Of a stretch of 64,000 nucleotides of DNA, positions 11,386-58,911 are shown piece by piece. Position 1 is the stretch's first letter. Each line of letters opens with the position of its first letter. A model generated the notes under the pieces. That model had not been told where the DNA came from. It saw only the letters and a program-made list of their open reading frames with translations, and made no database searches. Both the position numbers and the translations under genes were made by a program. Where the stretch lies: the NCBI GenBank assembly GCA_017889705.1, contig JAGGAB010000002.1:62001-126000 (forward strand), given 5' to 3'. This stretch comes from Bacillota bacterium. Lineage in GTDB: Bacteria > Bacillota > Negativicutes > Sporomusales > Sporomusaceae.

Positions 11386-11444
11386 TATCCGATGACTAAG
11401 ATTCAGACAGGGTTAAAACCCCAACTGAATCAAGTCTTATTTAT
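11386..11444 (+). repeat. R1 repeat, short copy at the 3' end of the M23 peptidase gene
   Basis: A 59-bp copy reading TTATCCGATGACTAAG, then the terminal hairpin (ATTCAG...CTGAAT), then CAAGTCTTATTTAT. The internal hairpin module seen in longer copies is missing. The stop codon of the convergent peptidase gene (11441-11443) lies inside the end of the repeat. Confidence 0.8.
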
Positions 11445-12322
11445 GGCAGGAAACCTGTCGGGTCTACCGGCTCGCCATTTTTTTGAATTTCAAAATGCAG
11501 ATGCGGACCGGTTGAATTGCCGGTATTGCCCATAGATGCAATTCGCTGACCGCCACGCACATACTGACCTCGTTCAACATTATAATCATCCAGGTGCCCA
11601 TATAAACTTATATATCCGCCGCCATGGTCAATCATTACCGTATAACCGTAACCCCCGCGCCAACCGGCCCAAATTATCTGCCCGGCCCGAGCAGCTACAA
11701 CATAGGTACCGGTGTCATTGGCAATATCAATACCGGCATGAAGGCGCCCCCACCGCCAGCCAAAATCAGAGGATATCTCGCCTCTTGTCGGCCAGAAGAA
11801 GCGGCTTACTGAAGCCCGGGCAACTACGGTCTCGGCTCTGGCCAAATGCGCTCCTGGAATAAAGAGTCTTTCACCAACTGTGATCTGGTCGCTGCCTTTC
11901 GTATTCGCTGATTTAATGGTCTCAACCGGCACACCATATGTATGAGCAATATCCCACAACGTGTCACCATTATTTACCTGATGAACAAGCCCTTTTTGGG
12001 GCAATATAACCAGTTGGTCACCAGGATGAATAAGATCACTGATTCCCGGATTTGCAGCAGTTAATGTCTCTACATCAATTCCATATCGCGCGGCAATACC
12101 TGATAAAGTATCTCCTGCCTCCACAGTATAACGCTTTGTCACTTGTTGAGGCTGCTCCACAGCTTTCGGTGCCTCAGCGACCTGAGTTTGGCTCGCAGGC
12201 ACAATTGGCATAGCTTCCGGCACTACATGGGGTTGAGTTGGAAAAACCCAAATCCCGGCTAATAGGGCAGCCCCACCCAAATAAGCCCATCGCCGCTTAA
12301 CTTTACTTTTCGGCAGATGCAA
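11441..12322 (-). CDS. LysM-domain M23 family cell-wall peptidase
   Basis: Envelope hydrolase of about 293 aa. Near the N terminus is a membrane or signal segment, then two LysM peptidoglycan-binding domains (about 65-110 and 113-157), then a LytM/M23 zinc endopeptidase domain (about 175-293) with HAGIDIA (metal H and D) and HLHFEI (HxH). Such enzymes cut peptide cross-links or act in spore wall remodelling. The frame opens at GTG 12331, but TTG at 12322 is better spaced from GAGG and is preferred. The R1 repeat abuts the stop codon. Confidence 0.9.
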   Translation of the reverse strand: MHLPKSKVKRRWAYLGGAALLAGIWVFPTQPHVVPEAMPIVPASQTQVAEAPKAVEQPQQVTKRYTVEAGDTLSGIAARYGIDVETLTAANPGISDLIHPGDQLVILPQKGLVHQVNNGDTLWDIAHTYGVPVETIKSANTKGSDQITVGERLFIPGAHLARAETVVARASVSRFFWPTRGEISSDFGWRWGRLHAGIDIANDTGTYVVAARAGQIIWAGWRGGYGYTVMIDHGGGYISLYGHLDDYNVERGQYVRGGQRIASMGNTGNSTGPHLHFEIQKNGEPVDPTGFLP

Positions 12323-12490
12323 ATACCTCACCTCGCTTACTGGTCTAATTTTAGTCAGCAGAACTAAGTCTGGCTGCTAACGCGAACTACTCCCAGTATT
12401 AGCATAAGCAAAAAGCCAAAAAAATATGCATAACTTGGTTATTTTTTTTAAATTATGTTATGATTTTTAGTTATTCAAACACACTCCAAA

Positions 12491-12557
12491 ACCAAAACGG
12501 GACTGCTCTCTTGGCCTGGCCGGTAAGGAAACCGTCAGACACCAAGAAGCAATCCCG
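12491..12557 (-). terminator. Rho-independent terminator of glpX
   Basis: A long stem with one or two mismatches (12498-12514 with 12542-12557) is followed on the minus strand by TTTTGGTTTTGG. Confidence 0.75.
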
Positions 12558-12588
12558 CTTATTATTGTTTATTGTTGTTGGTTACATA

Positions 12589-13554
12589 CTATACCCGTTT
12601 AATGAGCATAGGTTTTTTTTCAAATTTATGGATAGCATCCACAAATCGGATCGTCCCTGTCGATGCACGCATTACCAGCGAATGAGTGCGGGCACCGCCA
12701 CCAAAGTAGCGAACGCCATTTAGAAGATCGCCTTGGGTAATGGCTGTTGCCGCGAAAATGGCGTCATCGCCTTTAACCAAATCATCCAAAGTCAGCACCT
12801 TATTGATATCAGCAATTCCCATAGCCTTGGCCCGTGCTATGTCTTCATCGCCTTCCGGCCATAATCTGCCTTGCATGTCACCACCCAGACATTTAATGGC
12901 CGCAGCAGCCAATACACCCTCAGGCGCGCCGCCAATACCGAGCAGCATATGTACGCCTGTGCCTTCAATAGCCGCATTGATAGCCGGCGACACATCACCG
13001 TCAGAAATTAACTTAATTCTTGCGCCGGCATCACGCGCTTCTTTGATGATGGCCGCATGCCGCGGACGGTCAAGAATTACGACTGTAACCTCTTCTACTT
13101 TACGGGTAAGCGCCGCTGCAACCGCTTTAAGGTTCTCGGTTACAGACGCATTAATGTCAATTTTGCCTTTAGCCATCGGCCCAACGGCAATTTTGTCCAT
13201 ATACATATCAGGTGCATGCAGCAAATTGCCGCGCGGCGCAATCGCCAGTACAGCAATCGAGCCTGGCAGACCTTTGGCTACCAAGTTGGTCCCTTCCAGG
13301 GGATCAACCGCAATATCTACTTCTGGGCCGCCCTGGCCGACTTCTTCACCAATATACAGCATTGGCGCCTCATCCATCTCGCCTTCGCCAATAACAACCT
13401 GTCCACTTATACTTACGCTGTCAAACGCAGCGCGCATTGCATCCACAGCCGCTTGGTCAGCGGCAATTTTATCACCACGACCCATCCACCGAGCACTGGC
13501 AACTGCAGCGGCCTCGGTAACCCTTACAAATTCTAGTGCTAATTCACGTTCCAT
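12589..13554 (-). CDS. glpX: Class II fructose-1,6-bisphosphatase GlpX
   Basis: Gluconeogenic phosphatase of 321 aa, usual length, converting fructose 1,6-bisphosphate to fructose 6-phosphate. Lithium-sensitive phosphatase fold with metal/substrate motifs [10 protein letters not shown] (about 57-66) and DPLEGTN (about 84-90), plus [12 protein letters not shown] late in the protein. Ribosome site AAGGAG, 9 nt before ATG. It follows fsa by 26 bp and probably shares its transcript. In B. subtilis the same region runs spo0F-fba-tal-murA-glpX; fba and murA are absent here. Confidence 0.96.
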
Positions 13555-13580
13555 ATATTACATCTCCTTAACTTGTATCC

Positions 13581-14246
13581 TCACCTATTGGCCTTTTGCC
13601 AATCTTCCAGAAAACGTTTAATACCTGCATCTGTCAGCGGATGCTGCAAAAGTGATTGTAACACTTTTGGGGGAACAGTGGCAATATGCGCCCCTGCCAG
13701 CGCCGCCTGCGTAACATGCAGGGGATGTCGAATGCTTGCAGCAATAATTTCGGTCTCAATCCCATGAATAGAGAAAATATCTGCCGTATCCTTAATTAAC
13801 GCAATACCATCTTGACTTATATCATCAAGGCGACCAACAAACGGACTGACAAACGCAGCTCCTGCCCGCGCCGCCAACAATGCCTGGTTAGCCGAAAATA
13901 TCAAAGTTACATTGGTTTTAATTCCCTCTGCCGCCAGGGCACTGGCGGTCTTTAAACCATCAATTGTTACCGGAACTTTAATTACCACATTGCCACCAAG
14001 TTTGGCCAACGTCCTCGCTTCCGTCAGCATCTCAGCAAACTCGGTACTAATAACTTCAGCACTTACAGGCCCGGAAGTAAGTGCTGCAATTTCCTTGATT
14101 ACGGCTTTAATGTCTTGTTTTTCCTTAGCAATAAGCGATGGATTGGTGGTTACTCCTGCTACAACTCCCATTGGCAAAATGTCTTTGATTTCGTCAATAT
14201 TGGCAGTATCAAGAAAAAATTTCACAGGCAACTCACTCGCCTTCAT
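13581..14246 (-). CDS. fsa: Transaldolase / fructose-6-phosphate aldolase-like protein
   Basis: TIM-barrel aldolase of the small transaldolase (FSA/TalC) family, 221 aa in the longest frame. [11 protein letters not shown] at the start, the GVTTNPSL block and the Schiff-base lysine in VIKVPVT are all present. It moves dihydroxyacetone units in the pentose phosphate pathway. Family proteins normally begin at MKFFLDTA, which here corresponds to GTG at 14225, so the true start may be seven codons in; neither start has a strong ribosome site. It is followed closely by glpX. Confidence 0.93.
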
Positions 14247-14265
14247 TTTATTTAGGCAACCCTAC

Positions 14266-14904
14266 TCACTTGCGGTTGGTGCGCCTGAGCGGAGCTAATT
14301 CAATAGCCCCCATCGCAGATAATCTTGCCAAATCCTGCTCGTCTTTTGCCGAAATAAGCAGCCTGCCTTCACACTGATGACAAGACAACTCAACAGCATC
14401 TACAAGCACATCAACCTCAACATCGGTGCTGTTACCACAAGAGCAGTATACCCCTCCCTGCTCTGCAATATCATGGATCTTATTTAAAATCTCCAGCAAA
14501 ATTTGTGAATTCTCTATTCCCGAACCGTCTGGCTGCCCTTCCAGCTCACTGGCAAGACTGGCAACCTCCTGCTTATGTTTGTCAACAATTGCTGCAATGG
14601 CCTCTGGATTCCCAACAAAACCAAGTTCTAAATTCGCCTGGTCACAATATATTCTGCTTGCTTTGGGCTGACGAAATAAATTGCTGTCAAGGAAAATCAA
14701 GTGATTGGTTTCGCACACTACACAAGGAATATCTAACAGATATTGACGCCGCCCTGCAACAGATATCGTTCCCTGTGATTGGCCACAACTGCAGGCAAGC
14801 TGACAGGCTGAGTTATTAATAGCAAATCGGGAGACATTATGAAGTTCAATTTTGCCACATCGCGGACAATATAATGCCAATGTTGAGACAGCGTTAATGA
14901 TCAT
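14266..14904 (-). CDS. Unrecognised multi-zinc-ribbon protein
   Basis: A 212-aa soluble protein I do not recognise by name. It has at least four Cys pairs: CPRC (13-16), CSCG (about 38-41), CVVCE (about 61-65), and C-terminal CSCG and CHQC, suggesting two or more zinc ribbons flanking a helical middle (about 90-150). ATG follows GGGGGG. It lies between spo0F and fsa, where B. subtilis has fba. It could bind nucleic acid or act as a regulatory adaptor; nothing in the sequence decides this. Confidence 0.8.
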   Translation of the reverse strand: MIINAVSTLALYCPRCGKIELHNVSRFAINNSACQLACSCGQSQGTISVAGRRQYLLDIPCVVCETNHLIFLDSNLFRQPKASRIYCDQANLELGFVGNPEAIAAIVDKHKQEVASLASELEGQPDGSGIENSQILLEILNKIHDIAEQGGVYCSCGNSTDVEVDVLVDAVELSCHQCEGRLLISAKDEQDLARLSAMGAIELAPLRRTNRK

Positions 14905-15004
14905 GAATATCCCCCCTCTGCTTCCTGTATTTCGCCACCTATAGTAAAAATCCTGCCTGTTTATTGCAACTTAGCAATATCAGGTAACAGGGAAAACGCC
15001 AACA

Positions 15005-15036
15005 ATAACCCCGGGGACAGTTTTCCCCGGGGTTAT
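15005..15036 (-). terminator. Hairpin after spo0F, probable terminator
   Basis: A 13-bp perfect stem ATAACCCCGGGGA (15005-15017) with 15024-15036 lies just after the spo0F stop. The following T tract is weak, so termination may be partial. Confidence 0.65.
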
Positions 15037-15048
15037 TTGCAGTGAATG

Positions 15049-15453
15049 TTAACCAATCATCAACCTGTCAGGGCCCTCAATACTGGCACCGATATTATCA
15101 TGGATAATTTGACACAGTGACATAATATCAAACGGTTTGGTGATATAATCACGCATCCCTGCTTCTTTGGCCTCATTAACCATATCTAGCTCACCATATG
15201 CTGTCATCATAATTACCTGATCACCCTGTCCCTGACGCTTGAGCTCCTTTAAGGCCTCAATTCCGTCCATTCCAGGCATTTTCATATCCATTAAAATGAC
15301 ATTAGGATTATTATTCTGTGCAAGCTGTATGCCCTCGTAGCCGTTTGCGGCTGTAATTACCTGATACCCTTCATCCTGGAGAACCTCGGTCAGCAGTCTC
15401 CGAATCCCAGGTTGGTCGTCAATAACCAGTATGGTCGCTCGGGAATCGCTCAT
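15049..15453 (-). CDS. spo0F: Sporulation phosphorelay response regulator Spo0F
   Basis: Single receiver domain of 134 aa with no output domain. Acidic pair D12/D13, phospho-acceptor D56 (LMDMKMPGMDG), MMTAYGE and KPFD lysine are in place. Spo0F takes phosphate from sporulation kinases and passes it to Spo0B/Spo0A. The preferred start is ATG 15453 with AAGGTG six nt before it; a GTG nine bases upstream is also in frame. Position near pyrG, fsa and glpX matches B. subtilis. Confidence 0.9.
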   Translation of the reverse strand: MSDSRATILVIDDQPGIRRLLTEVLQDEGYQVITAANGYEGIQLAQNNNPNVILMDMKMPGMDGIEALKELKRQGQGDQVIMMTAYGELDMVNEAKEAGMRDYITKPFDIMSLCQIIHDNIGASIEGPDRLMIG

Positions 15454-15670
15454 GTAACGCACCTTACTTTCTCGCAGTTTTGACAGAAAATTTCATTTAC
15501 TCATTTCCTGTCTACATATATTCGCATTTAATCGGAAATCTCCTGCTAGAAAATGGAAATTTTTTCAAATTATTTTTGTCTTTTTTCTAATTTCTGTGAA
15601 ATACTTCCTATCCCGCCCATTTTTGTGCTACACTTTGTTATGTAATTAACTGCTTTGCGAGGTAGATTGT

Positions 15671-17991: not shown

Positions 17992-18005
17992 ACCAATCCC
18001 CTCCC

Positions 18006-18932: not shown

Positions 18933-18963
18933 AAATCTACCTCCTTCTTAAGTCCCGGTTTAA

Positions 18964-18998: not shown

Positions 18999-19007
18999 AC
19001 TATATTT

Positions 19008-20741
<1,734 letters not shown>

Positions 20742-30598: not shown

Positions 30599-33500
30599 CT
30601 ATTTAAAATAGCTGACACCGGCACTAAACAGGCGCTGATCCTTATTGCCCGGGATATTAGCGGCAACATGACCGCCAATACGCTCAGAGTGAGCCATTTT
30701 ACCAAGCACACGCCCATCAGGACTGGTAATAGCTTCAATGGCCTGGAAAGAACCGTTAGGATTAAAAGCTACGTCATAGGTGGCCTGACCGTCAAAATCA
30801 ACATATTGGGTTGCGATCTGGCCATTGGCCGCCAATTGGCTGATTTCTTCCGCAGTAGCATAAAACCGACCTTCCCCGTGTGAAGCAGGAATTGCAAAGA
30901 CTTCGCCGGCTTCCACATTGCTCAGCCAAGGCGACAGAGTTGATACCACCTTGGTATTAACCATGCAGGAAATATGACGCCCGATTTTATTAAAGGTCAG
31001 TGTCGGACTATGCTCAGACAGGTCGCGTATTTCGCCGTAAGGAACCAGCCCCAGTTTTATCAGCGCCTGGAAGCCATTGCAAATACCAAGCATCAATCCG
31101 TCCCGCTGCTGTAGTAATTCGGTAACTGCCTGTTTTACGCGCGGATTGCGAAACACTGTGGCAATGAACTTGCCTGAACCGTCAGGCTCATCGCCAGCGC
31201 TAAAACCTCCGGGAATCATAACAATATGTGAATTGTCAATCGCACTGGCAAGTGCTGCTATGGATTCCTCAATATGGGAGGCAGTGAGGTTGCGGATGAC
31301 CAGCGACTGGGCAACAGCTCCGGCCTGTTCAAACGCTTTGATGGTATCATACTCACAGTTGGTGCCGGGAAATACCGGAACAAGTACCCGTGGCTTAGCA
31401 ATGGCGACTTTAGGCCGCCGCGTATTGCGCAGTGTATAAGCAGTAAAGTTTTGTGGCTTGCCATCGATAAGCTCAGGCCGGGTAGGGAAAACCTTTTCAA
31501 GCGGCTGTTCCCAGGCGGCAAACGCCTCTTCGAGGGTTATCGCCACACCGTCAAGCGCAATAACTTGTTCTGTCGTTGTTTTTCCCAGCAGCTCATAGGC
31601 AATATCACCAAATTCCTGAGCAGCATCCAGACCTGCGGGGAGTTCGAGCACCAAGGAACCATAATCAGGCGTAAATAAATCCCGAATAGCCACTTGTGCG
31701 GCAAAGGTCATACCGATACGGTTACCAAACGCCATTTTGCTGACAGCTTCGGCAATACCTCCTGCTTTAACCGGATATGCAGACAGTATTTTACCAGCCT
31801 GAATAAGTTGGGTTACTTTATCATAGGTTACTTTTAAAACAGCAAAATCAGGAAGCTCATCTTGATTGCGTTGCAGGCGGACAATAGCCACCTGACTGCC
31901 GATTTTCCTAAATTCCTGCGAAATTACCTGACGGACATCCACAGGGGTTACGGCAAAGGCCACCAGTGTCGGCGGTACGTTAAGCTCATTAAACGACCCT
32001 GACATACTGTCCTTACCGCCAATTGCCGGAATGCCCAACTGCTGCTGCGCGTAAAAAGCACCTAATAATGCGCCGAATGGCTTGCCCCACTTCACACTGT
32101 CTTTTCCCAGCTTTTCAAAATACTCTTGCAGCGTCAGCCGCACAGTCCGGAAATTGCCACCTAAAGCCACTACTTTGGCTACCGCTTCAACAATGGCATA
32201 AACAGCACCATGAAACGGGCTCCAGCTGGAAAGATACGGATTAAAACCATAGGTCATGATGGTACCTGTCGTGGTATCGCCTGACACCATCGGCAGTTTA
32301 GCTACCATGCCCTCAATAGGAGTAGCCTGATATTTTCCGCCAAACGGCATAAGGACAGTACCGGCGCCAATGCTGCTGTCAAAACGCTCCACCAGACCTT
32401 TTTGGCTGGCAACATTGATATTCTGCAAAGTCTGCAGCCAAGTCTCTTTAACCTGTTGTGCAGTTATTTTGCCGCCAACAGGTGTGTCGGCAAAATAACT
32501 GGTATCTGCCGGCGCTGATACCTGCACAGTGGTATACTGCTTAGCACCGTTGGTATTTAAGAATGCACGGCTAAGGCTGACAATAGGTTTGCCACGCCAT
32601 AACATAGTCAGGCGATTATCGTCAGATACCGTAGCCACACGGGTTGCCTCTAAATTTTCGGCATCAGCATATTCGATAAAATTCTGCGCATTCTCAGCAG
32701 CAACTACAACCGCCATGCGTTCCTGCGATTCCGAGATGGCAAGTTCGGTGCCGTCAAGACCCTCATATTTTTTAGGAACAGCATCCAGATTAATCTGCAG
32801 ACCGTCTGTAAGCTCGCCAATGGCTACAGACACACCGCCAGCGCCAAAATCATTACAGCGTTTAATCATGGTGCTGACTGCACTGTGACGGAATAAGCGC
32901 TGGATTTTGCGTTCAGTCGGCGGATTGCCTTTTTGGACTTCAGCGCCGCAGGTTTCCAGTGATTCTTCAGTGTGAGCCTTGGACGAACCGGTAGCGCCAC
33001 CACAGCCGTCACGCCCGGTGCGACCGCCGACCAACAATACAATATCGCCAGGCTGCGGCTCCTGCCGCACAACATTCTGTTTGGGCGCGGCTGCCATAAC
33101 TGCGCCAATTTCCATGCGTTTGGCAACATAGCCTTCATGATATACTTCAGCTACCTGGCCTGTTGCCAAACCAATTTGATTACCATAGGAGCTATAACCG
33201 GCTGCCGCACTGGTGGTAATCTTGCGCTGGGACAGCTTGCCTGGCAGGGTATTCTCCAGCGGCACACGCGGATCGCCGCTGCCGGTAACCCGCATGGCCT
33301 GGTAAGCATACGACCGGCCTGAGAGCGGATCGCGGATACAACCGCCAAGGCAGGTAGCCGCCCCGCCAAAGGGCTCAATTTCTGTCGGATGATTATGGGT
33401 TTCATTCTTGAACATAACCAGCCAGTCTTCACACTGTCCGTCAATATCAGCTTGTACCACAATGCTGCAGGCGTTAATTTCTTCTGATTCATCCAAATCA

Positions 33501-34381
33501 GTTAACTGTCCCTGTTTTTTCAGTTCCTTCATGGCGGCTGTGGCAATATCCATTAAATTGATATCGCGTTCGCCTGCTTTTTCCCCATACACATAATTCC
33601 TGGCCTTGCGGTATTCCTGCCAGGCTTTGTCAACAGCCTGCGTAAAATGGCCTGGTTCAATGTCAACTTTTTCAATCTTGGTATGGAAGGTAGTATGGCG
33701 GCAATGATCTGACCAATAGGTGTCAATTACCTTTATTTCTGTAATTGTCGGATCACGCTTTTCGGTATCCCGGAAATAGATTTGGCAAAAATCCAGATCC
33801 TCCAGACTCATGGCCAAACCGCGTTCCTGAAGAAACTGGTTTAATTCGGCCTGAGTCATATTGGTAAAGCCTGTAAGACATGCCACATCCTCAGGCATGG
33901 TTACAGGCAGTTCTAAGGTTACCGGTTTTTCAAGCGCAGCCTCTCTGGCTTCCACCGGGTTAATACAGTATTCTTTAATTTTGGCAAGATCTGCAGCTGA
34001 AATTTGTCCTCCCAGCACCAGCACCTTAGCAGTGCGAATCTCAGGACGTTCTTTTTGAGTTAATATCTGGACAGACTGCGCCGCCCAGTCGGCCCGTTGG
34101 TCATACTGACCAGGCAAATATTCCATGGCAAACACAGTTTCCCCGGCAGACACAGTAAATTTCTCAAGATAAACAACATCCACAGGAGGTTCGGAAAAAA
34201 TGGTATGAAGGGAAGCCTCAAACTCGGCGTCACTTATTCCACTGATATCATAGCGGTGCAAAATGCGCACCTCTGTCAAATTCGTTATCCCCAAATGGTG
34301 CTTTAAATCAGAATACACACCTGCGGCCTCAACGGCAAAACCCGGTTTTTTCTCTACAAATATACGACGAACGGCACTCAA
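30599..34381 (-). CDS. purL: Phosphoribosylformylglycinamidine synthase, single-chain
   Basis: Purine pathway enzyme of 1260 aa in which the PurS-like, PurL and glutaminase PurQ parts are fused, as in Clostridia and Proteobacteria. It turns FGAR into FGAM using glutamine and ATP. Residues about 200-960 hold the AIR-synthase-like halves (THNHPTEIEPFGGAAT, GGKDSMSGS); about 1000-1255 hold the glutaminase with VFPGTNCEYD, nucleophile in LGICNGFQ and SHGEGRFY. The start is TTG with GGAGG at 8 nt. A minus-orientation R1 repeat ends directly at this ribosome site. No other pur gene is nearby. Confidence 0.96.
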   Translation of the reverse strand: MSAVRRIFVEKKPGFAVEAAGVYSDLKHHLGITNLTEVRILHRYDISGISDAEFEASLHTIFSEPPVDVVYLEKFTVSAGETVFAMEYLPGQYDQRADWAAQSVQILTQKERPEIRTAKVLVLGGQISAADLAKIKEYCINPVEAREAALEKPVTLELPVTMPEDVACLTGFTNMTQAELNQFLQERGLAMSLEDLDFCQIYFRDTEKRDPTITEIKVIDTYWSDHCRHTTFHTKIEKVDIEPGHFTQAVDKAWQEYRKARNYVYGEKAGERDINLMDIATAAMKELKKQGQLTDLDESEEINACSIVVQADIDGQCEDWLVMFKNETHNHPTEIEPFGGAATCLGGCIRDPLSGRSYAYQAMRVTGSGDPRVPLENTLPGKLSQRKITTSAAAGYSSYGNQIGLATGQVAEVYHEGYVAKRMEIGAVMAAAPKQNVVRQEPQPGDIVLLVGGRTGRDGCGGATGSSKAHTEESLETCGAEVQKGNPPTERKIQRLFRHSAVSTMIKRCNDFGAGGVSVAIGELTDGLQINLDAVPKKYEGLDGTELAISESQERMAVVVAAENAQNFIEYADAENLEATRVATVSDDNRLTMLWRGKPIVSLSRAFLNTNGAKQYTTVQVSAPADTSYFADTPVGGKITAQQVKETWLQTLQNINVASQKGLVERFDSSIGAGTVLMPFGGKYQATPIEGMVAKLPMVSGDTTTGTIMTYGFNPYLSSWSPFHGAVYAIVEAVAKVVALGGNFRTVRLTLQEYFEKLGKDSVKWGKPFGALLGAFYAQQQLGIPAIGGKDSMSGSFNELNVPPTLVAFAVTPVDVRQVISQEFRKIGSQVAIVRLQRNQDELPDFAVLKVTYDKVTQLIQAGKILSAYPVKAGGIAEAVSKMAFGNRIGMTFAAQVAIRDLFTPDYGSLVLELPAGLDAAQEFGDIAYELLGKTTTEQVIALDGVAITLEEAFAAWEQPLEKVFPTRPELIDGKPQNFTAYTLRNTRRPKVAIAKPRVLVPVFPGTNCEYDTIKAFEQAGAVAQSLVIRNLTASHIEESIAALASAIDNSHIVMIPGGFSAGDEPDGSGKFIATVFRNPRVKQAVTELLQQRDGLMLGICNGFQALIKLGLVPYGEIRDLSEHSPTLTFNKIGRHISCMVNTKVVSTLSPWLSNVEAGEVFAIPASHGEGRFYATAEEISQLAANGQIATQYVDFDGQATYDVAFNPNGSFQAIEAITSPDGRVLGKMAHSERIGGHVAANIPGNKDQRLFSAGVSYFK

Positions 34382-34395: not shown

Positions 34396-34473
34396 ATAAA
34401 TGAGACTTGCTTCAGATGGGGTTTTAACCCCACCTGAAGCTTAGTCGAATTATCCAGTTAGTCATCGGAGAAA
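34396..34473 (-). repeat. R1 repeat, medium copy before purL
   Basis: A 78-bp copy in minus orientation: CTCCGATGACTAAC, then GGATAATTCGACTAAGCTTCAGG, the terminal hairpin, then CAAGTCTCATTTAT, which runs straight into AAGGAGG of purL. The internal ACTCCCG hairpin is missing. The arms keep pairing despite a base change shared by both (TTCAG becomes CTTCAGG / CCTGAAG-like). Confidence 0.82.
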
Positions 34474-39677: not shown

Positions 39678-39765
39678 AAGAACTCCTCCGCCATCCTGTA
39701 CTCTGTCGCATACCATTTACTTACCCTTACACTAGTACAGTTTACTGGCTACGTCAATGCGCAAA

Positions 39766-39809
39766 TAGAAAAAACCATTCAGGCGGCATTATAATGCCGC
39801 CTGAATGGT
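39766..39809 (-). terminator. Rho-independent terminator of nfnAB
   Basis: A perfect palindrome of about 36 bases (39774-39809) centred on ATTATAAT, followed on the minus strand by TTTTTTCTATTT. Confidence 0.88.
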
Positions 39810-39820
39810 TAATATATCTT

Positions 39821-41203
39821 TTAGGCACTCATCATTTCATCAATGGCTTTAGCCGCCCGTTTACCTGCACCCATTGCTAAAATAACGGTAGCAGCACCAG
39901 TTACGGCGTCACCGCCAGCATATACCCGTTCGCGGCTGGTTAGGCCAGTCTCTTCATCAGCGACAATACATTGCCATTTATTAATCTCCAGACCTTCGGT
40001 GGTAGAAGAAATTAAAGGATTAGGCGATGTTCCCAGCGACATAATAACGGTATCAACAGCTATAACAAACTCAGATCCCGGTACTTCCACCGGTTTTCTC
40101 CGGCCTGAGGCATCAGGCTCGCCCAGTTCCATTTTTACACATTTGAGACCGGTTACCCAGCCTTTATCATCAACAATAACCTCAGTTGGGTTTGTCAACG
40201 TATCAAAAATAATGCCTTCTTCATGGGCATGATGCACTTCTTCAACCCTGGCCGGCAATTCAGCTTCTGACCGCCGATACACAATATGAGTCTCTGCACC
40301 CAAACGGGCAGCCGTTCTGGCAGCATCCATAGCAACATTACCGCCGCCAACCACCGCAACTTTTTGTCCCACTTTAATGGGTGTCGAGTAGTCTTCCCGG
40401 AAGGCTTTCATCAGATTGTTCCGCGTCAAAAACTCATTGGCCGAAAATACACCGTTGGCATTTTCACCAGGAATTCCCATGAACTTAGGCAAACCGGCAC
40501 CTGAACCAATAAATACAGCATCAAAGCCTTCTTCATTTAACAATTCATCAATGGTAACGGTTTTACCGACAACCACGTTGGTTTCAATAGTAACACCCAG
40601 TTTTTTGAGATTTTCAATCTCGCTCTTAACAACAGTTTCCTTAGGCAGGCGAAACTCAGGGATACCATACACCAAGACCCCGCCTGCCTCGTGCAGCGCC
40701 TCAAATATGGTAACTTCATACCCTTTGCGCGCCAAATCGCCGGCGCAGGATAACCCGGCCGGACCGCTGCCGATAACCGCTACCTTTTTGCCGTTTTTAG
40801 GCTGAGTAGTTACAGTATCTACTTGATTTTCCCTGGCCCAGTCGGCAACAAAGCGTTCAAGTTTACCGATAGCCACCGGCTCTCCCTTAATTCCCAAAAT
40901 GCATTTACCCTCACACTGGGTTTCCTGTGGACAAACCCGGCCACACACGGCCGGCAGCGCACTAGATTCGGCAATAATTTTGGCCGCCTCGGCAATTTCG
41001 CCTTGTTTTACCTGATTGATAAAAGCCGGAATATCAATGGCTACCGGACACTGTCCTACACATTTTGCGTTTTTGCAGTTTAAGCAGCGGGCAGCTTCTG
41101 CAACAGCTTCCTCCAGGGAATATCCCAGACATACTTCTTCAAAATTTGTTACCCGTTTTTTGGGGTTTTGTTCACGTACCGGTATTCTTGCTATATTAGC
41201 CAT
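39821..41203 (-). CDS. nfnB: NfnB-type NADPH oxidoreductase subunit (glutamate synthase small chain-like)
   Basis: A 460-aa flavoprotein. N-terminal two-cluster region with CLNCKNAKCVGQCPV and CGRVCPQETQCEGKC, then FAD-binding GSGPAGLSCAG (about 147-157) and a second dinucleotide fold GGGNVAMDAARTA. Alone it would be annotated GltA/GltD-like; next to an NfnA-like gene it is best read as the large subunit of NADH-dependent ferredoxin:NADP+ oxidoreductase, which bifurcates electrons between NADH and ferredoxin. Its ATG overlaps the nfnA stop by one base. A sulfide dehydrogenase (SudA) role is an alternative. Confidence 0.88.
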   Translation of the reverse strand: MANIARIPVREQNPKKRVTNFEEVCLGYSLEEAVAEAARCLNCKNAKCVGQCPVAIDIPAFINQVKQGEIAEAAKIIAESSALPAVCGRVCPQETQCEGKCILGIKGEPVAIGKLERFVADWARENQVDTVTTQPKNGKKVAVIGSGPAGLSCAGDLARKGYEVTIFEALHEAGGVLVYGIPEFRLPKETVVKSEIENLKKLGVTIETNVVVGKTVTIDELLNEEGFDAVFIGSGAGLPKFMGIPGENANGVFSANEFLTRNNLMKAFREDYSTPIKVGQKVAVVGGGNVAMDAARTAARLGAETHIVYRRSEAELPARVEEVHHAHEEGIIFDTLTNPTEVIVDDKGWVTGLKCVKMELGEPDASGRRKPVEVPGSEFVIAVDTVIMSLGTSPNPLISSTTEGLEINKWQCIVADEETGLTSRERVYAGGDAVTGAATVILAMGAGKRAAKAIDEMMSA

Positions 41204-49824: not shown

Positions 49825-49837
49825 ACTTTTCCCCTCC

Positions 49838-50968: not shown

Positions 50969-50989
50969 ACTACATTCCTCCGTTCGTTA

Positions 50990-51178: not shown

Positions 51179-51216
51179 TTTTGTTCCTCCCCCATACTCT
51201 TTTTAAGCCAAATAGG

Positions 51217-52593: not shown

Positions 52594-52608
52594 TTTTCCC
52601 ACCCCTCC

Positions 52609-53877
52609 CTAATTAAGGCCGTAAGCCTTGGCAATGATTTCAGCGGTGTGCAATACTTTCATATTACTGCTGCGCTGACCTAAACCGTCGGTAATGTGCA
52701 TCCGGCAAGCCGAGCACCCTGTTGCCAGGATAGCTGCGCCTGTCTTTTCCGCATTGTCGAGTTTCCAATCATTGATAGTACGGGAAATTTCATAGTGGGC
52801 CATGCTAAAGGTGCCGCCTGCACCGCAGCATTTGGCGGCGTCCTTCATTTCGGCATATTCCACACCCGGAATAGCCTGCAATAATTGCCGTGGTTGTTGC
52901 GAGACCCCCATACCCCGGACAAGGTGACAAGGGTCATGATACGTTATTTTAGCTTTTACTTCACGTAATTCCTGCTTTATTCCTTGTTCAACAATAAATT
53001 CTGTAATATCTTTGACTTTTTTCGATATTTTTTCCCACAATTGTTTAACTTTAGGGTCTTCGATAATATTGCCGTATTCATGTTTTAAGGCCGCCCCACA
53101 GGAAGCACAGCCGGTAACAATATCATCATAATCTCCGTCAGCCAAAATTTTTATATTTTCTTCTGCCAAATACCGTCCTACCTGGTAATCACCGGAGGTA
53201 AACGCCGGTGTGCCGCAGCAACTCTGTTTGGCGGGAATAACCACTTCGGCATCATGAGCTTTAAGGATTTTGACAATGGCTTCGCCTGCTTCCGGGTAAA
53301 TATAATTCAGCATACAGCCGGTGTAAAAAGCCACTCTGACTTTGGGCGAAGACACTGTATTCGTTTCCGGCAAGCGGGTTCTTAGCGGCGCGCTGGCTAA
53401 AGGCGGAATAATACGCCGTTGGCTAAGACCGGCACTGGGCATGGGAATACGGGCCAATTTGCCCCGGCCTTTAGGCGCTTCTTTAAAAACAACGCCCTGA
53501 AATACCGCACCCATTTTAAGACCCAGGTCAAATAACTTACGATATGTCAGTCCGGTAAAGGCTAGCTTTTTCGCTAACGGTAATCCATTTTGATCAGCCA
53601 GCAGCTTTCTGGCACTTAAAAACAGCTCATCGGTTTTTACACCTGACGGACAGCCATTCACACAGGCCTTGCACAATAAACACTTGCCCATGCGCTGCTG
53701 CAGCTCAGGTGTCAGCGGCAATTTGCCTTCGCTGACGGCTTCCAGTAGTCTCACCTTGCCTCTGGCAGTGGTATTTTCATTATCTGCGGCCTGAAACACC
53801 GGACAGACCGAACGGCAGGTACCGCAGCGAATACATTTAACCAGTTGGTTTTGCCAGGCCTCATATTTCTTATCCAT
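52609..53877 (-). CDS. glcF: GlcF-type iron-sulfur (CCG domain) subunit
   Basis: A 422-aa electron-transfer subunit. Two [4Fe-4S] motifs near the N terminus (CIRCGTCRSVCP and CLLCKACVNGCP) are followed by two CCG domains (YTGCML...SCCGTPAF and CASCG...CCGAGGTF). It would pass electrons from GlcD/GlcE to a membrane or ferredoxin-linked acceptor. Its ATG begins on the base after the glcE stop. GlcD follows by about 15 bp. Confidence 0.93.
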   Translation of the reverse strand: MDKKYEAWQNQLVKCIRCGTCRSVCPVFQAADNENTTARGKVRLLEAVSEGKLPLTPELQQRMGKCLLCKACVNGCPSGVKTDELFLSARKLLADQNGLPLAKKLAFTGLTYRKLFDLGLKMGAVFQGVVFKEAPKGRGKLARIPMPSAGLSQRRIIPPLASAPLRTRLPETNTVSSPKVRVAFYTGCMLNYIYPEAGEAIVKILKAHDAEVVIPAKQSCCGTPAFTSGDYQVGRYLAEENIKILADGDYDDIVTGCASCGAALKHEYGNIIEDPKVKQLWEKISKKVKDITEFIVEQGIKQELREVKAKITYHDPCHLVRGMGVSQQPRQLLQAIPGVEYAEMKDAAKCCGAGGTFSMAHYEISRTINDWKLDNAEKTGAAILATGCSACRMHITDGLGQRSSNMKVLHTAEIIAKAYGLN

Positions 53878-55041
53878 TTAGTTCACCCCCTGCTGCAGTT
53901 GACGGTTGAGTATTTGTTTGGGATCAAAACTAAGTTTGGCCCGCTGCTCAAGCTCTGCCAATATGCCGCTTTGGCCTTTGCCGGCAAGCCGGTCATATTT
54001 GCCGGCTAGAACGCCACCGGCCTGCTCGACTGCAGCGCCAACGGCTTCCATAAACCTGTTGTCCGGCTGGGCTGTGGCACACGCAATATTGAGTTTACCT
54101 TCGGCTATCTGCCCAAACAAACCGGCTTTTACGCCGCTGTCTTTACTGATTTGGTAAAAGGCCTTGATGAATTCTTCCTGACGGGTAAAAGCCAGTTTGT
54201 ATTCATCAGTTAATATATACTTATCTGTACTCTGATATAAATCAGTCCACTTGATCGGTGTTTGGCCGCTGCCTTCATAAGACTCCAGCACTTTCCCGCC
54301 ATGTTTTTTACTCAGGGTGTCCGCATTTTGATATTGTTCAGCAACTTCTTCCTGCAAACCGTCAAACGCAAGCATTAATAGGTGCCCTGCTGGTTTATCC
54401 CCAAAAAGCTCCTGCACCTGACTGTCAACCCATAGGAGGTAGGCAGGAACCACCCGGCATTCTTTCAAATCCTTAACAAAGGCCAGCACCTCATTAAGGC
54501 CGGCAAATGTCAGTGCCACACCTTTGCGAATCTCAGGTAGCGGCAGCAGTTTCAGCAGAAATTTTACAGTAATACCATAATCGGTATACGGCGCATTAAA
54601 AAAACGGGTAAAATCATAACCGGTGACATTTTTGACGGTCTTGCCGCCGGTTTTTAATAACTCTCCTGTTGGCAGGACAACTTCCGACCCCATTAAAAAA
54701 TGTTTGGCGCTCCCGTATTTTAAGCTGGCCAAGTTTGCACAGCCTTCATAAAAAAATTGGCCTACGGTTTTTCCATGGTAAAACGGGGTATCGGCAGGTA
54801 AAAAGCGGAGTCCCTGCTGAGCCAGACTGCCAGCCAATACACCCAGTTTAACACCTGGTCTGACAGTTGCGACAAGGTTGGCCGCATCAATTTCCACAAT
54901 CTCATCAAGTTTAGTTAGGTCGACACTTATTCCTGTTTCCAGAGCTTGCCTGTAAACATATACAGGGTTTTCAGTATCAGATGCAGTCCGCAGTAAGTGC
55001 TGTAATTCCTCAACAGACTGAGGATACATGGGTTGATTCAC
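53878..55041 (-). CDS. glcE: GlcE-type FAD-binding subunit
   Basis: A 387-aa FAD-binding oxidoreductase subunit, a second, smaller PCMH flavoprotein (about 5-180) with LRFLPADTPF, GKTVGQFFYEG and GGKTVKNVTGYD. In glycolate oxidase GlcE pairs with GlcD and GlcF. The start is GTG with GGAGG at 7 nt. It lies first in the operon, about 385 bp after serA; an R1 repeat fills much of that gap. Confidence 0.9.
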   Translation of the reverse strand: MNQPMYPQSVEELQHLLRTASDTENPVYVYRQALETGISVDLTKLDEIVEIDAANLVATVRPGVKLGVLAGSLAQQGLRFLPADTPFYHGKTVGQFFYEGCANLASLKYGSAKHFLMGSEVVLPTGELLKTGGKTVKNVTGYDFTRFFNAPYTDYGITVKFLLKLLPLPEIRKGVALTFAGLNEVLAFVKDLKECRVVPAYLLWVDSQVQELFGDKPAGHLLMLAFDGLQEEVAEQYQNADTLSKKHGGKVLESYEGSGQTPIKWTDLYQSTDKYILTDEYKLAFTRQEEFIKAFYQISKDSGVKAGLFGQIAEGKLNIACATAQPDNRFMEAVGAAVEQAGGVLAGKYDRLAGKGQSGILAELEQRAKLSFDPKQILNRQLQQGVN

Positions 55042-55170
55042 AAGAATACCTCCTTTACTACCTTTCTAACGCTAGCCTAACTGCTTATTGCCAAATATGA
55101 AACCAAATCACGACCAAACGCAAAAATTGCCTGACGAACCCCGGTAAATTGTCCACAAAAAGTACTCTCG

Positions 55171-55319
55171 TAAATGGAGACTTAATTCAGACGGCGTTTT
55201 AACGCCGCCTGAGTTTTAGTCGGAATTATCTTAACGTTTAGCCGCTCGCCTGTGCCCGTAATGGTATACTCCCGCTTGTTTAAACGGGAGTCTTAGAGAG
55301 GGTTAGTCATTCGGATAAA
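55171..55319 (-). repeat. R1 repeat, long copy between serA and glcE
   Basis: A copy of about 149 bp in minus orientation with all modules: TTATCCGAATGACTAACC, internal hairpin ACTCCCG...CGGGAGT, GGGCACAGGCGAGCGGCTAA, GATAATTCCGACTAAAACTCAGG, terminal hairpin with GCGGCGTT/AACGCCG arms and TTAAGTCTCCATTTA. It accounts for most of the 384-bp gap; the rest holds the serA terminator and, presumably, a glcE promoter. Confidence 0.85.
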
Positions 55320-55320
55320 G

Positions 55321-55344
55321 CAGCCGTACCTTTCGGTACGGCTG
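55321..55344 (-). terminator. Terminator of serA
   Basis: A 10-bp perfect stem CAGCCGTACC with GGTACGGCTG around TTTC; the T tract after it is short (CTTTATCC) and is the first module of the R1 repeat. Confidence 0.6.
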
Positions 55345-55425
55345 TGTTTGCTGCTTCAGTTTCCATAGCTGGCACTACCGACATTTTCTCCTTGCCAACG
55401 ATAATAGCTTATTACAAAACCGCAC

Positions 55426-57006
55426 TTATATCTTTACAAAATTCACCCGCAGGATACCATCTATGCCGCCGAGGAAATCCAGGGTATCCTGAGAAACCTC
55501 GGAGTCAACAGCCAATACCATCATAGCTTTTTGCACAGCCTCATTCCGGCCAAGCTGCATTGTGGCAATATTGACCTTAGCAACTCCCAGCAATGTTCCC
55601 ATTTGTCCCACAACCCCCGGCTTATCTGTATTTTCCGCAATTAGCATGTTTGGAGTGGGGTTAATATCAAATTCATAGCCATTAATATTTACAATTCGTA
55701 ATTCGCCAAGACCAAACGTTGTACCGCTGATGGTAAACACCTTGCCTTTGGACATAACTTTGAGTGTAAGTAGCGTCAGGTAATTGTCGATATCTGTTTC
55801 TTTGCTTTCGGTAACGGTAACGCCGCGGCTTTTGGCAATGACGCTGGCATTTACATAGTTAATCCGTTCTTTTAGAACCGGCTCAAATAGTCCTTTTAAG
55901 ATAGCCAGCGAAATAACCGAAGTTTCCAGCGCTGCTACTTCGCCCCGATACACGATTTCTACTTTTTCAATGGCTTCTTTTTCCAGTTGATAATACATCT
56001 TACCCATGGTTTCGCCTAATTTCAGATAGGATTTGATAATATCAAATTCCTGCATTGGCAAAGTAGGCAGATTAACCGCATTGGGAACAATTTCACCCCG
56101 CAGTGAAGAAACTACTTCCTGGGCTACTGTTATGCCGACATTATCCTGCGCCTCAACCGTATCAGCGCCGGCATGGGGTGTTACGATAACATTTTCGCAA
56201 TCTAGGAGCGGCGAAGTAGGCTCTGGTTCTCCTTCCGGCACATCAATACCAACTCGCTTAACAATCTTTTCTTTCATGGCTTCAATCAGCGCAGCTTCAT
56301 TTATAATGCCTGCCCGCGCGCAATTGATAACAGTCAAACCTTTTTTCGCGGCTTTAAATTGTTCTTTGCCAATCATGCCATAAGTTTCTTTGGTTTTGGG
56401 AGTATGGACAGTGAGAATATCGCACTCTGCCATCAACTCTTCCACAGTTTCTTTCTTTTCAACACCAAGTTTTTTGAAACGGGTATCACTGATATAAGGA
56501 TCATAAGCAATAATTTCCATACCAAACGATTTTAAGCGGGTAGCCACTAACGAACCAATCCGGCCCAAACCAACAATACCAACGGTTTTACCTTGAAGTT
56601 CCATGCCCTTTAGCCCGGCGCGGTCCCACACCCGTTCTTGCAAACGGTTATGCAGCTGAGGAATGTTGCGGCAGGTTGCGAACAGCAGACCGATAGTAAG
56701 TTCAGCAGCCGATACAACATTGGATTCGGGAGTGTTAACAACAATAATACCGCGCTTAGTGGCGCCGTCCATCTCAATATTGTCCACACCGTTGCCGGCA
56801 CGTCCTACTACCTTTAACTTAGTGGCCTTTTGGTACAATTCCTCATTTACTTTGGTGTTGCTTCTAACAATCAGGGCGTCATATTCGCCAATAATTTTCA
56901 GCAGCTCTTCCCGCGAAAGGCCAGTTTTTACATCAACAGTAACGCCTTCCTTTGTAAGTCTTTCAATACCTTTTTGCGCAATCTGTTCAGATACTAATAC
57001 TTTCAT
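55426..57006 (-). CDS. serA: D-3-phosphoglycerate dehydrogenase
   Basis: First enzyme of serine synthesis, 526 aa, long form. NAD-binding domain with GLGRIGSLVATRL (about 147-159), catalytic Arg/Glu/His set in CARAGIINEAAL and TPHAGADT, then an ASB domain and a C-terminal ACT domain (about 455-526, AENTDKPGVVGQMG) for serine feedback. SerA enzymes can also reduce 2-oxoglutarate to D-2-hydroxyglutarate. ATG 57006 follows GGAGG; the longer frame would begin inside the T-box terminator. A T-box leader precedes it. Confidence 0.96.
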   Translation of the reverse strand: MKVLVSEQIAQKGIERLTKEGVTVDVKTGLSREELLKIIGEYDALIVRSNTKVNEELYQKATKLKVVGRAGNGVDNIEMDGATKRGIIVVNTPESNVVSAAELTIGLLFATCRNIPQLHNRLQERVWDRAGLKGMELQGKTVGIVGLGRIGSLVATRLKSFGMEIIAYDPYISDTRFKKLGVEKKETVEELMAECDILTVHTPKTKETYGMIGKEQFKAAKKGLTVINCARAGIINEAALIEAMKEKIVKRVGIDVPEGEPEPTSPLLDCENVIVTPHAGADTVEAQDNVGITVAQEVVSSLRGEIVPNAVNLPTLPMQEFDIIKSYLKLGETMGKMYYQLEKEAIEKVEIVYRGEVAALETSVISLAILKGLFEPVLKERINYVNASVIAKSRGVTVTESKETDIDNYLTLLTLKVMSKGKVFTISGTTFGLGELRIVNINGYEFDINPTPNMLIAENTDKPGVVGQMGTLLGVAKVNIATMQLGRNEAVQKAMMVLAVDSEVSQDTLDFLGGIDGILRVNFVKI

Positions 57007-57062
57007 GATCTTACCTCCGTTTTTTTGTAATCCGGTTTTACCTTTTTTACTACAGAAGTTAG

Positions 57063-57112
57063 AAAAACTCACCCCATATCATGGGGCGAGTTTTAACCCG
57101 CGTTGCCACCCA
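57063..57112 (-). promoter_or_regulatory. Second T-box antiterminator-terminator module of the serA leader
   Basis: On the minus strand CTGGGTGGCAACGCGGG (57096-57112) matches the T-box core, followed by a terminator (ACTCGCCCCAT/ATGGGGTGAGT and TTTTTC, 57063-57094). Less than 40 bp separate this core from the R2 repeat upstream, too little for a normal stem I, so this module appears incomplete. Confidence 0.75.
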
Positions 57113-57145
57113 GCTTAGACCAAAACACATCATAAGTGTGACACG

Positions 57146-57243
57146 ATAAAGAAAACACAGCTTGCACCAATCTTCAGTGAAGGCACAAGTCGCTGCTATC
57201 CTTATTTCGCTTGTAAGAAAGTTATACTTTCTTTCAGGGGAAA
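57146..57243 (-). repeat. R2 repeat, copy 1, in the serA leader
   Basis: About 98 bp sharing roughly 80% of bases by eye with 60519-60615. On the minus strand it runs AGAAAGTATAACTTTCT, then ACTTGTGCC...GGTGCAAG, which pairs with two G-U wobbles, then GTTTTCTTTAT. It lies between the two T-box modules. Confidence 0.8.
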
Positions 57244-57246
57244 ATA

Positions 57247-57450
57247 AAAAAGTTCTCCATCCCTTTAGGGACGAGAACTATTCCCGCGTTGCCACCCATG
57301 TTGCCTTTCGGCCAACTTTAGCCGCTATAGTGGGCGGATCCCATTCTGATTCATCACCAGACACTCCCAGGCGGAACTTTGCTGCTTAGCGGACGACTCG
57401 CACCAACCGTCATCTCTCTGCACACCTTGCATTCAGCTTCCTGTTCATTG
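57247..57450 (-). promoter_or_regulatory. T-box leader of serA (first, complete module)
   Basis: The minus strand carries a stem I with AGAGAG and GGTTGGTGCGAG (57394-57420), a T-box core TGGGTGGCAACGCGGG (57283-57298) and a terminator GTTCTCGTCCC/GGGATGGAGAAC with TTTTTTATTTT (57247-57279). An AGC (serine) triplet at about 57381-57386 is a plausible specifier but was not proven by folding. Uncharged tRNA-Ser would favour antitermination. Confidence 0.88.
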
Positions 57451-57560
57451 TGTTGAATATTTCATTGAAATGATTATATCGTGTATGCAACTGTAAGTCA
57501 AGTGTATTTTTCAGAAGGTCATTGTTCCACCAAAAGTTTTTTTCGCTTTGTCTAAAGACA

Positions 57561-58241
57561 TTACTTTTGATACCTTTTCAGGCTTTTCTCATCCAAAATA
57601 ATAATTTGGTGTTCCGCAAAATCAATAACCTTATCCTTTTTCAGCGAACTCAGCACCCGGCTTACCGTCTCCCGGGTTGTCCCCACCAAATTGGCTAAAT
57701 CCTGGCGTGTCATATCAATGGCAATCTGAACACCGCCGGCAACCGGCTGGCCATACTGCTTTGATAGGCGGCCAAGCACCTGGGCTGTGCGCGAAACGGT
57801 ATCAGATAATGCCAGTGTTCTGATCTTCATCTGGGCATGAATTAATTTTTTGCTCATCACTTGGATAATATGCAGCGCAATACGGCTGTTTTCTGCTACC
57901 ACATTCTCCAGGTCACTGTTTTTTATAATGCCGATAACCGAGTCTTCAATTGCCACAGATGTAGCTGGATAAGATCCCCGATTAAATAGCAGCACTTCGG
58001 CAAAAACTTCACCAGGTCCCAAAATATTAATAATGTGTTCGCGGCCGTCAGGTGCCATCTGCGTAATTTTAACCTTGCCACTTTTTATGTAATGAAAGCC
58101 TTCTCCCGGCTCACCTTCCATAAAAATTATCATATTTTTTTTATAGCGCCGTTCAATAGTAACTGTATTAATCGCAGCTAAATCGGCGGGAGCCAGTTCT
58201 TCGAAAATTGGTATATGCTTTAAATATTCCAAGCCCTGCAT
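57561..58241 (-). CDS. Crp/Fnr-family transcription regulator
   Basis: A 226-aa regulator. The cyclic-nucleotide-binding-like beta barrel (about 8-120) has GEVFAEVLLFNRGSYPATSVA, where the Arg that binds cAMP phosphate is replaced, so cAMP is unlikely. There is no N-terminal Cys set for an FNR cluster. The C-terminal HTH has TTRETVSRVLSSLKK; R-E-x-x-x-R equals the E. coli Crp residues that read TGTGA. The ligand is unknown (heme or redox in HcpR-like proteins). ATG 58241 follows GAGGAG. Confidence 0.9.
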   Translation of the reverse strand: MQGLEYLKHIPIFEELAPADLAAINTVTIERRYKKNMIIFMEGEPGEGFHYIKSGKVKITQMAPDGREHIINILGPGEVFAEVLLFNRGSYPATSVAIEDSVIGIIKNSDLENVVAENSRIALHIIQVMSKKLIHAQMKIRTLALSDTVSRTAQVLGRLSKQYGQPVAGGVQIAIDMTRQDLANLVGTTRETVSRVLSSLKKDKVIDFAEHQIIILDEKSLKRYQK

Positions 58242-58312
58242 GTCTTTCTCTCCTCTCACACACCAACGCAAACAATCACATTTACACCTACTGTTATTAT
58301 AATTATAACTAA

Positions 58313-58340
58313 AAAAGTCCAGCCCGCAAGCTGGACTTTT
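58313..58340 (-). terminator. Terminator downstream of the ferredoxin gene
   Basis: An 11-bp perfect stem (58313-58323 with 58330-58340), then a T run on the minus strand. A further hairpin (about 58360-58410, CCACGGTCTCCGC with GCGGAAACCATG) lies between it and the ferredoxin stop. Confidence 0.8.
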
Positions 58341-58435
58341 GTTGCCTACAAATAGGTTAACCTAAGCGCACCACGGTCTCCGCCTGCGCTACAGCTCAGC
58401 GGAAACCATGTTGTCTTTACCGTATAGGTAGCCCC

Positions 58436-58609
58436 CTATTCTCCAGGGCTGATAGCTCCTACCGGGCAAACGGCTGCACAAGCGCCGCAATCAATGCAAA
58501 GACCTGGGTCAATTTCATATTGGCTGTCGCCTTCCGAAATCGCCTCAACCGGACAAACCGGTGCACAGGCACCGCACTTCACACATTCAGAACTGATTTT
58601 AAATGCCAT
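58436..58609 (-). CDS. 2[4Fe-4S] ferredoxin
   Basis: A 57-aa clostridial-type ferredoxin with two CX2CX2CX3C motifs: C9, C12, C15, C19 and C38, C41, C44, C48. It is a likely electron carrier for KOR, Nfn and other ferredoxin enzymes. ATG 58609 follows AAGGAGG. It is monocistronic. Confidence 0.96.
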   Translation of the reverse strand: MAFKISSECVKCGACAPVCPVEAISEGDSQYEIDPGLCIDCGACAAVCPVGAISPGE

Positions 58610-58765
58610 GTTTAAGCCTCCTTCCTTGTTGCTGGTCGTCTTTGCGACGTCCACTTTAATTATACCGCAATTTGGACTTGAAGTCTGTGATAAAAATCAT
58701 ATTTAGTATCTGCAACTTAGCTTGATTTTAAGAAACTGTGTTCAAGGAAATTATTGTTTTCTTAT

Positions 58766-58911
58766 TTATCGGATGACAAACCTGTTCTAATACCCCTATC
58801 TCTAGGCGGGAGTATTACCCCTACGGCCACAGGCGAATGGCTAGACGTTAGGATAATTCGACTAAGATTCAGATGGGGTTCCCCCCCCCATCTGAATCAA
58901 GTCTCATTTAT
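58766..58911 (+). repeat. R1 repeat, long copy before the GH26-like gene
   Basis: A copy of about 146 bp: TTATCGGATGACAAACC, a weaker internal hairpin, GGCCACAGGCGAATGGCTAGA, GGATAATTCGACTAAGATTCAG, terminal hairpin with an eight-C loop side, CAAGTCTCATTTAT. It fills most of the gap between the ferredoxin and the GH26-like gene. Confidence 0.85.

Follow-up and report, generated by a model that had tools for sequence, protein, structure and literature searches.

R1, a mobile and gene-free repeat family of Bacillota, probably moved in trans by an IS200/IS605-type transposase

The window, a stretch of 64,000 nucleotides from a Bacillota bacterium (GCA_017889705.1, contig JAGGAB010000002.1, positions 62,001 to 126,000), belongs to a Sporomusa genome of 5.0 Mb in 154 contigs (hereafter G000) and carries five copies and one partial copy of a short repeat family, R1 (Table 1). 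An original prediction, made from the letters alone, had described these as modular intergenic repeats with a terminal hairpin; direct reading and a covariance model recover all six, and the modules that it named are common to the five copies. Some of its detail has shifted. The copies lie where they were placed, but the element proper begins with CCGATG directly after TTTAT, so that the left TTTAT is target DNA, and the copy said to end at 55171 is present but terminates in TTTAC, with 55170 as its last base. What was called an optional hairpin exists as the apex of a long left hairpin, which in full copies runs from TTATCC to GGATAA and within which GGCACAGGCGA is an additional module.

Table 1. 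R1 copies in the window, with their flanking sites and immediate neighbours.
Feature	Position	Strand	Left site	Remarks
Short R1 copy	11389..11444	+	TTTAT 11384-11388	Left and right modules fused, inner part including guide lost; 56 bits; right TTTAT overlaps end of LysM/M23 peptidase open reading frame 11441-12331 (-)
R1 copy without GGCACAGGCGA module	19011..19135	+	TTTAT 19006-19010	Guide degenerate; right end overlaps end of pyrG (CTP synthase, 19128-20741, -)
R1 copy, most of left hairpin deleted	34396..34468	-	TTTCT 34469-34473	Guide GGATAAT retained; directly before ribosome-binding site of PurL-like gene 30599-34381 (-)
Long R1 copy with GGCACAGGCGA module	55170..55314	-	TTTAT 55315-55319	Right end TTTAC; left TTTAT just after terminator-like hairpin
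Long R1 copy with GGCACAGGCGA module and poly-C loop	58770..58911	+	TTTAT 58765-58769	
Decayed partial R1 copy (terminal hairpin)	11276..11343	-		38.6 bits

The covariance model, which describes the 65-base terminal module and was built from 40 copies (window copies 55171 and 34396 among them), scores the five copies at 56-77 bits. Amongst the sequence motifs, TTATCCGATGACTAA at the 5' end stands out by itself, with seven window matches at up to three mismatches, four of them copies, against 1.2 expected and none of 100 shuffles reaching seven. The 3' motif (four matches, all copies; 13/100 shuffles reach four) and the linker motif (four matches, two of them copies; 4/100 shuffles) are weaker when taken alone. 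One further model match, at 39762-39821 (33 bits), was rejected: it is a hairpin resembling a terminator, with arms of CATTCAGGCGGC and a run of T, that follows the stop of a gene, and its resemblance to R1 is likely due to chance. Five neighbouring genes in the window were tested and matched CTP synthase, a PurL-like protein, an FAD-linked oxidase, a LysM/M23 peptidase and glycosyl hydrolase 26, with no common theme. Across the source genome, 103 of 110 copies are intergenic and seven overlap an open reading frame of at least 80 amino acids, as called by a simple procedure. Their orientation to genes varies (41 antisense, 26 sense, 18 and 16 mixed), and where a gene end faces the right end of the element, the gene terminates within the last bases of R1 in 24 of 57 cases. 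For neighbouring genes, an insertion next to TTTAT should do little harm, as its opposite strand, ATAAA, carries a TAA stop.

Comparison of copies beyond the window reveals an ordered architecture. Elements measure about 60-150 bases, or up to about 250 with extra modules, which is too short for a transposase gene, and the claim that no transposase is present holds for the element itself. From left to right they consist of the target TTTAT, CC, a long left hairpin, a guide GGATAAx, a right hairpin of the pattern NNCT-AA-..TTCAG..CTGAA..-A-AGNN, and x'TTTAT; in sequence, a full element follows its target TTTAT with CCGATGACTAAC, closes the long left hairpin with CCTGGATAA and passes through the second hairpin to the final TTTAT. 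Amongst 71 left ends, flanking bases other than TTTAT are random, and each of the five TTTAT positions is conserved in 55 to 68; tandem copies have one TTTAT or TTTGT in common (L020, L024, L038, L129). Palindromes lie near the termini, and the right module is perfectly palindromic in one element (L242) and nearly so in another (L110). Read against each other, the two ends (left, CCGATGAC; right, in reverse complement, ATAAATGAGACTT) do not form terminal inverted repeats. Folded as single-stranded DNA, three full elements give z values of -10.1 to -14.5, and two window copies give -3.9 and -4.9. Elements also vary by accretion: several from genomes G077 and G137 (L169-L171, L174-L176, L248, L253-L256) bear a number of extra modules inside the left hairpin and before the guide, with modules shuffled between copies, and class B elements L167, L168, L394 and L401 nest a GGGACAGGAATGTCCC palindrome, of a kind also found beside RAYT genes, inside the left hairpin.

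That the window copies belong to a much larger family is borne out by a model search of the source genome, which finds about 110 distinct copies. The raw counts of 149 matches at E≤0.1 and 138 at E≤1e-4 include both-strand matches of single places, whilst extraction proceeded from 100 sources through 170 matches and 150 aligned sequences to 111 distinct best-strand rows. Full copies within one genome are dispersed and closely alike. At E≤1e-4, with both strands counted, two sister Sporomusa yield 111 and 82 matches, the lowest count amongst those of the genus with a match being 3 (G006 and G007 have 3 each), and genomes of two other genera yield 49 and 42; in this survey, 17 of 31 genomes, G000 included, have a match. 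Under stricter filters a sample of Bacillota contains R1 in 26 of 299 genomes and 21 of 215 genera, where the nine other listed genomes of the same class have no match and the remaining 25 positives belong to other classes; two genomes of the same class outside the order have two matches each at E≤1e-4. A pattern scan of named genomes recovered at least 112 R1 stretches, and the 80 of these that are listed include Desulfosporosinus, Syntrophomonas, Pelosinus, Sporomusa, Desulfotomaculum, Desulfotruncus, Paradesulfitobacterium, Alkaliphilus and one Oceanobacillus. A pattern scan also places R1 in one viral contig; plasmid and phage records searched with one full element as query gave no match.

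R1 is mobile. One record of its movement comes from Syntrophomonas wolfei subsp. methylbutyratica (G163, 13 model matches), in which ten listed places were compared with its sister genome G045: seven of the ten copies have orthologues and three are absent. For those three, the joined flanks match G045 across the join at 92-96% identity, and the empty sites are clean absences with a single TTTAT where the filled sites have one TTTAT on each side. Empty sites at orthologous loci, the evidence to which the original prediction had pointed, are precise and have one TTTAT, which by itself is equally expected from a duplication of five bases and from an insertion on the 3' side of TTTAT.

Sporomusa tells a similar story, with S. 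malonica (G005), S. acidovorans (G004) and S. silvacetica (G008) amongst the relatives. The copy at 34396, before purL, is absent from all five sister loci examined, and that at 19011, after pyrG, from five of seven, the other two carrying R1 (50.7 bits, G003) and another insertion (G008). The copy at 58770 is absent from the one locus examined, in S. silvacetica, where the empty site reads TTTTATGATATAAT. The region to the left of the first window copy (10723-11439) is missing altogether from two sister loci (L220 and L236), where precise absence is therefore not demonstrable; the six loci for this site contain no R1 match. Also to the left of that copy, 11139-11279 matches many places in other Sporomusa, more than 20 of them in G003. 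A further insertion is seen in an IS605-type tnpB gene, interrupted by R1 at a left site TTTGT in two genomes (G041 and G126; L102 and L106); five uninterrupted copies of this tnpB read CCATTTATC in four cases and CCATTTTATC in one. Two species carry the interrupted gene (L102:1146-2539, L106:1146-2538) between outer flanks that are unrelated, which suggests that gene and insert travelled together as one unit.

The arms of the hairpins differ between copies and still pair, as had been noted in the window, and the claim of selection on structure gains support from covariation in a set of 44 elements. These are 47 representatives of 125 with a left part of 66-92 bases, minus three (L248, L273, L288) that the analyst dropped for inner deletions or a foreign module. 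Over 40 pairs, 88.9% of cells are paired, and compensatory double changes occur in both hairpins, at 22 of the 40 pairs and in 150 cells, compared with shuffle means of 15.9 and 42.9 and with none of 500 shuffles as high. As R1 sequences are related, the shuffle control is lenient; a control with slid partners gives 25-47% paired and 13-37 double-change cells.

A second regularity links the interior of the element to its right end. In 109 of 112 elements, the base after GGATAA is complementary to the base before the final TTTAT, compared with a mean of 50 and a maximum of 67 in 2000 shuffles. All 112 are distinct and were matched by a pattern that requires both GGATAA and TTTAT to be intact; their pair states are GC (52), TA (52) and CG (5), the exceptions being AA, GT and TC, and these states follow lineages, so the independent changes of guide are few. 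The outer right stem of the same elements reads GACT/AGTC in 78, AACT/AGTT in 8, TTCT/AGAA in 8 and GGCT/AGTC in 7, the rest being AACT/AGTC (4), GACT/AGCC (3), GACT/AGTT (3) and GGCT/AGCC (1).

Taken together, R1 is probably non-autonomous mobile DNA that transposes in single-stranded form, is moved in trans by an IS200/IS605-type (HUH, Y1) transposase and is inserted 3' of TTTAT. The first part of this reading had been offered as one of two possibilities in the original prediction, and precise empty sites, dispersed near-alike full copies, a lack of coding capacity and the failure to see an autonomous form in 429 loci all favour it. On the proposed mechanism, the element would leave as single-stranded DNA, its hairpins would be recognised by the transposase, the guide would position both the right cut and the TTTAT target, the element would be joined on the 3' side of TTTAT, and copies would then decay in place. 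An extension of this scheme, which is rather unlikely, is that one guide GGATAAx serves both ends in turn, pairing either with TTATCC of the left junction, which closes the first hairpin, or with x'TTTAT, which closes the second; the two foldings are mutually exclusive, so that R1 would on its own alternate between a form for the left cut and one for the right cut, and the enzyme would be neither a resident RAYT nor a tnpB-linked TnpA.

It is worth noting, however, that several observations weigh against the main reading. In S. wolfei, gain in one genome and precise loss in the other are not told apart, and the seven orthologous pairs differ at 19/882 positions inside R1 against 57/784 in the left and 36/840 in the right 120-base flanks, a slower change that tells against a purely parasitic R1 and makes constraint or gene conversion possible. 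The first helix (TTATCC/GGATAA) shows no double change in the 44-element set; a possible counterpart TTCG..CGAA in class B elements (L099, L168, L344, L394) was spotted by eye alone. The left guide sits 3' of its hairpin, unlike that of a canonical IS605 left end. No transposase is tied to R1, and it is from the layout that an enzyme class is suggested. Around 81 Y1 loci at 80 places, RAYT and tnpA together and forming part of the Y1 loci found, the R1 model gives no hit with E under 0.01 over distances of about 1.5 kb or less, the best being E 0.018 (L180) and E 0.048 (L079). No Y1 match occurs in 5 of 18 R1-bearing genomes, two of which (G309 and G137) have at least ten listed R1 places each but appear to be metagenome-assembled. 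One relative (G006) has 11 Y1 genes and 3 R1 matches, as against 2 Y1 genes, one of them broken, and 138 R1 matches in G000, and no TnpB was found in G000, G003, G021, G045 or G163.

An autonomous form was not seen in 429 loci covering 1.70 Mb, the majority of which extend just 1-1.5 kb to either side of the element. Amongst 222 left ends, 31 lack a right end within 400 bases, and the 24 of these with more than 500 bases after them were judged by eye to be decayed, module-bearing or tandem copies. Pattern scans for R1 at Y1 loci gave nothing at 31 loci and five chance-like matches at 61. A fragment re-check of the 81 loci dismissed hairpins at L087 and L180 as unrelated to R1. Two remnants could be leads to the mobilising enzyme rather than demonstrated ends of an insertion sequence (IS): an R1-like stretch in S. 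silvacetica about 100 bases upstream of a RAYT gene (L079), in which the AAGACTCCCGCCTCTACAGG apex is exact and TTCAGGTGGAG..CTCCACCTGAA forms a hairpin, and an R1-like left hairpin about 170 bases upstream of an IS200-type tnpA (L177, G215). Since the 81 loci contain no intact R1 and these remnants are only leads, R1 is better filed as an element of the palindrome-associated transposable element (PATE) kind than as a member of IS200/IS605. A link to TnpB, sought at 30 loci, was rejected, R1 lying inside the same tnpB at two places (L443 and L456) and at the 3' end of a different tnpB, oriented against it (L434), in neither case as an IS end. In G041, three tnpB elements directly follow TTTAT and open with a left hairpin of similar design, and one has 29 bases at 97% in common with R1 copies of G077; this likeness, which is one of sequence and layout, is suggestive only as a tie to IS605.

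Many genomes that carry R1 also have RAYT-type Y1 genes, amongst them the S. wolfei pair with visible movement; together with the remnant upstream of the S. silvacetica gene, this raises the alternative that R1 is an element like the repetitive extragenic palindromes (REP) or REPINs, mobilised in trans by a resident RAYT. We consider this unlikely: the 11 loci inspected have GGGGACAGG- or GGGGACGGTTC-like repeats beside the gene instead of intact R1, the wider set of Y1 loci has none either, and R1 number does not track Y1 number. Were R1 instead a miniature inverted-repeat transposable element (MITE) moved by a DDE-type transposase, with TTTAT an obligatory target duplicated on insertion, then the TTTAT that flanks R1 left and right, and that empty sites have a single time, would formally be a 5-base duplication. 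Against this stand ends CCGATGAC and ATAAATGAGACTT that are not terminal inverted repeats, two hairpins that differ from each other, and the agreement in 109 of 112 elements between an internal guide and the base that precedes the right TTTAT, an agreement that binds this end to the element and suggests that the right TTTAT belongs to it; a DDE-moved MITE is accordingly quite unlikely.

The other possibility raised in the original prediction, a structured RNA such as a mobile regulator of untranslated regions kept by its host, could draw on the strong covariation of the stems and on the slower change of orthologous S. wolfei copies than of their flanks. It is not favoured. Over 16 stem positions in 111 copies (1759 cells), non-Watson-Crick cells comprise 52 G.T, 75 A.C and 69 others, so that G.T is not in excess and the difference leans towards A.C (p 0.05). 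One of 17 pairs, 32-60, was left out by the analyst as it splits by subfamily (G.T 54, A.C 8); with it counted, G.T stands above A.C (106 vs 83, p 0.11). Neither count gives a significant preference for G.T, which does not favour RNA and fits decay after insertion better than RNA under selection. Every orientation to genes occurs, the five tested neighbours are unrelated genes, and copies are absent from sister species. In Rfam, the whole window gave no match at gathering score, a permissive search with a 401-base piece holding one copy brought no family to that score, and at ten copy-bearing loci nothing reached it except tRNAs and two riboswitches away from the element; a known RNA family was thus rejected. 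That R1 is a structured RNA strikes us as very improbable.

R1 is not the only repeat of its type in these genomes. A second dispersed family, at 57145-57252 and 60519-60620 of the window, has 43 matches at 83-100% in G000 and a layout like that of R1, namely a hairpin, ATAAG, a further hairpin and an TTCTTTAT end. A third related family occurs in sister Sporomusa and reads CGACTAAGGCTTCTGC...AAGCCAAGTCTT.TCTTAT (complete at L211 and L229, partial at L213).

R1 as non-autonomous mobile DNA is of interest beyond the window. It is abundant and spread over genera from Sporomusa and Pelosinus to Desulfosporosinus, Syntrophomonas, Alkaliphilus and one Oceanobacillus, and the match between guide and end provides a clear, testable rule for a gene-free element that carries its own targeting. 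The task of finding its enzyme is by now well delimited. No description of the family was found in the open-licence papers searched, judged mostly by title and start of abstract.

Several known systems bear comparison. The BOX elements of Streptococcus pneumoniae are modular, dispersed intergenic repeats with optional inner modules, and R1 shares that layout. With REP sequences and bacterial interspersed mosaic elements (BIME) served by RAYT, as excerpted from PMC2817692, R1 has in common that a genome may contain intergenic palindromes by the hundred or so, or more; it differs in its exact TTTAT boundaries, and the RAYT loci tested lack intact R1, those inspected carrying other repeats. In the sections of PMC7290912 and PMC4227781 drawn on here, IS200/IS605 elements have a T-rich pentanucleotide target, no inverted ends, subterminal hairpins and a guide at the hairpin foot, and PMC4227781 has group A IStrons insert after TTGAT, ATTAT or TTTAT. 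R1 likewise lies beside TTTAT and has subterminal hairpins, the right one with a guide at its 5' foot that matches the end, but it has neither tnpA nor tnpB, ends in TTTAT, carries its left guide off the canonical place and has no cognate transposase amongst those found. The data give no more than a hint that it descends from a particular IS605-type element. Closest in overall character are the PATEs of Haloquadratum walsbyi, which the relevant passages of PMC3119063 present as short and gene-free and as present or absent between close genomes. To judge from these passages, R1 resembles them in its brevity, lack of genes, near-terminal palindromes, divergent copies and want of terminal inverted repeats, and departs from them in having a single guide between two unlike hairpins and in spanning many genera of one bacterial phylum.

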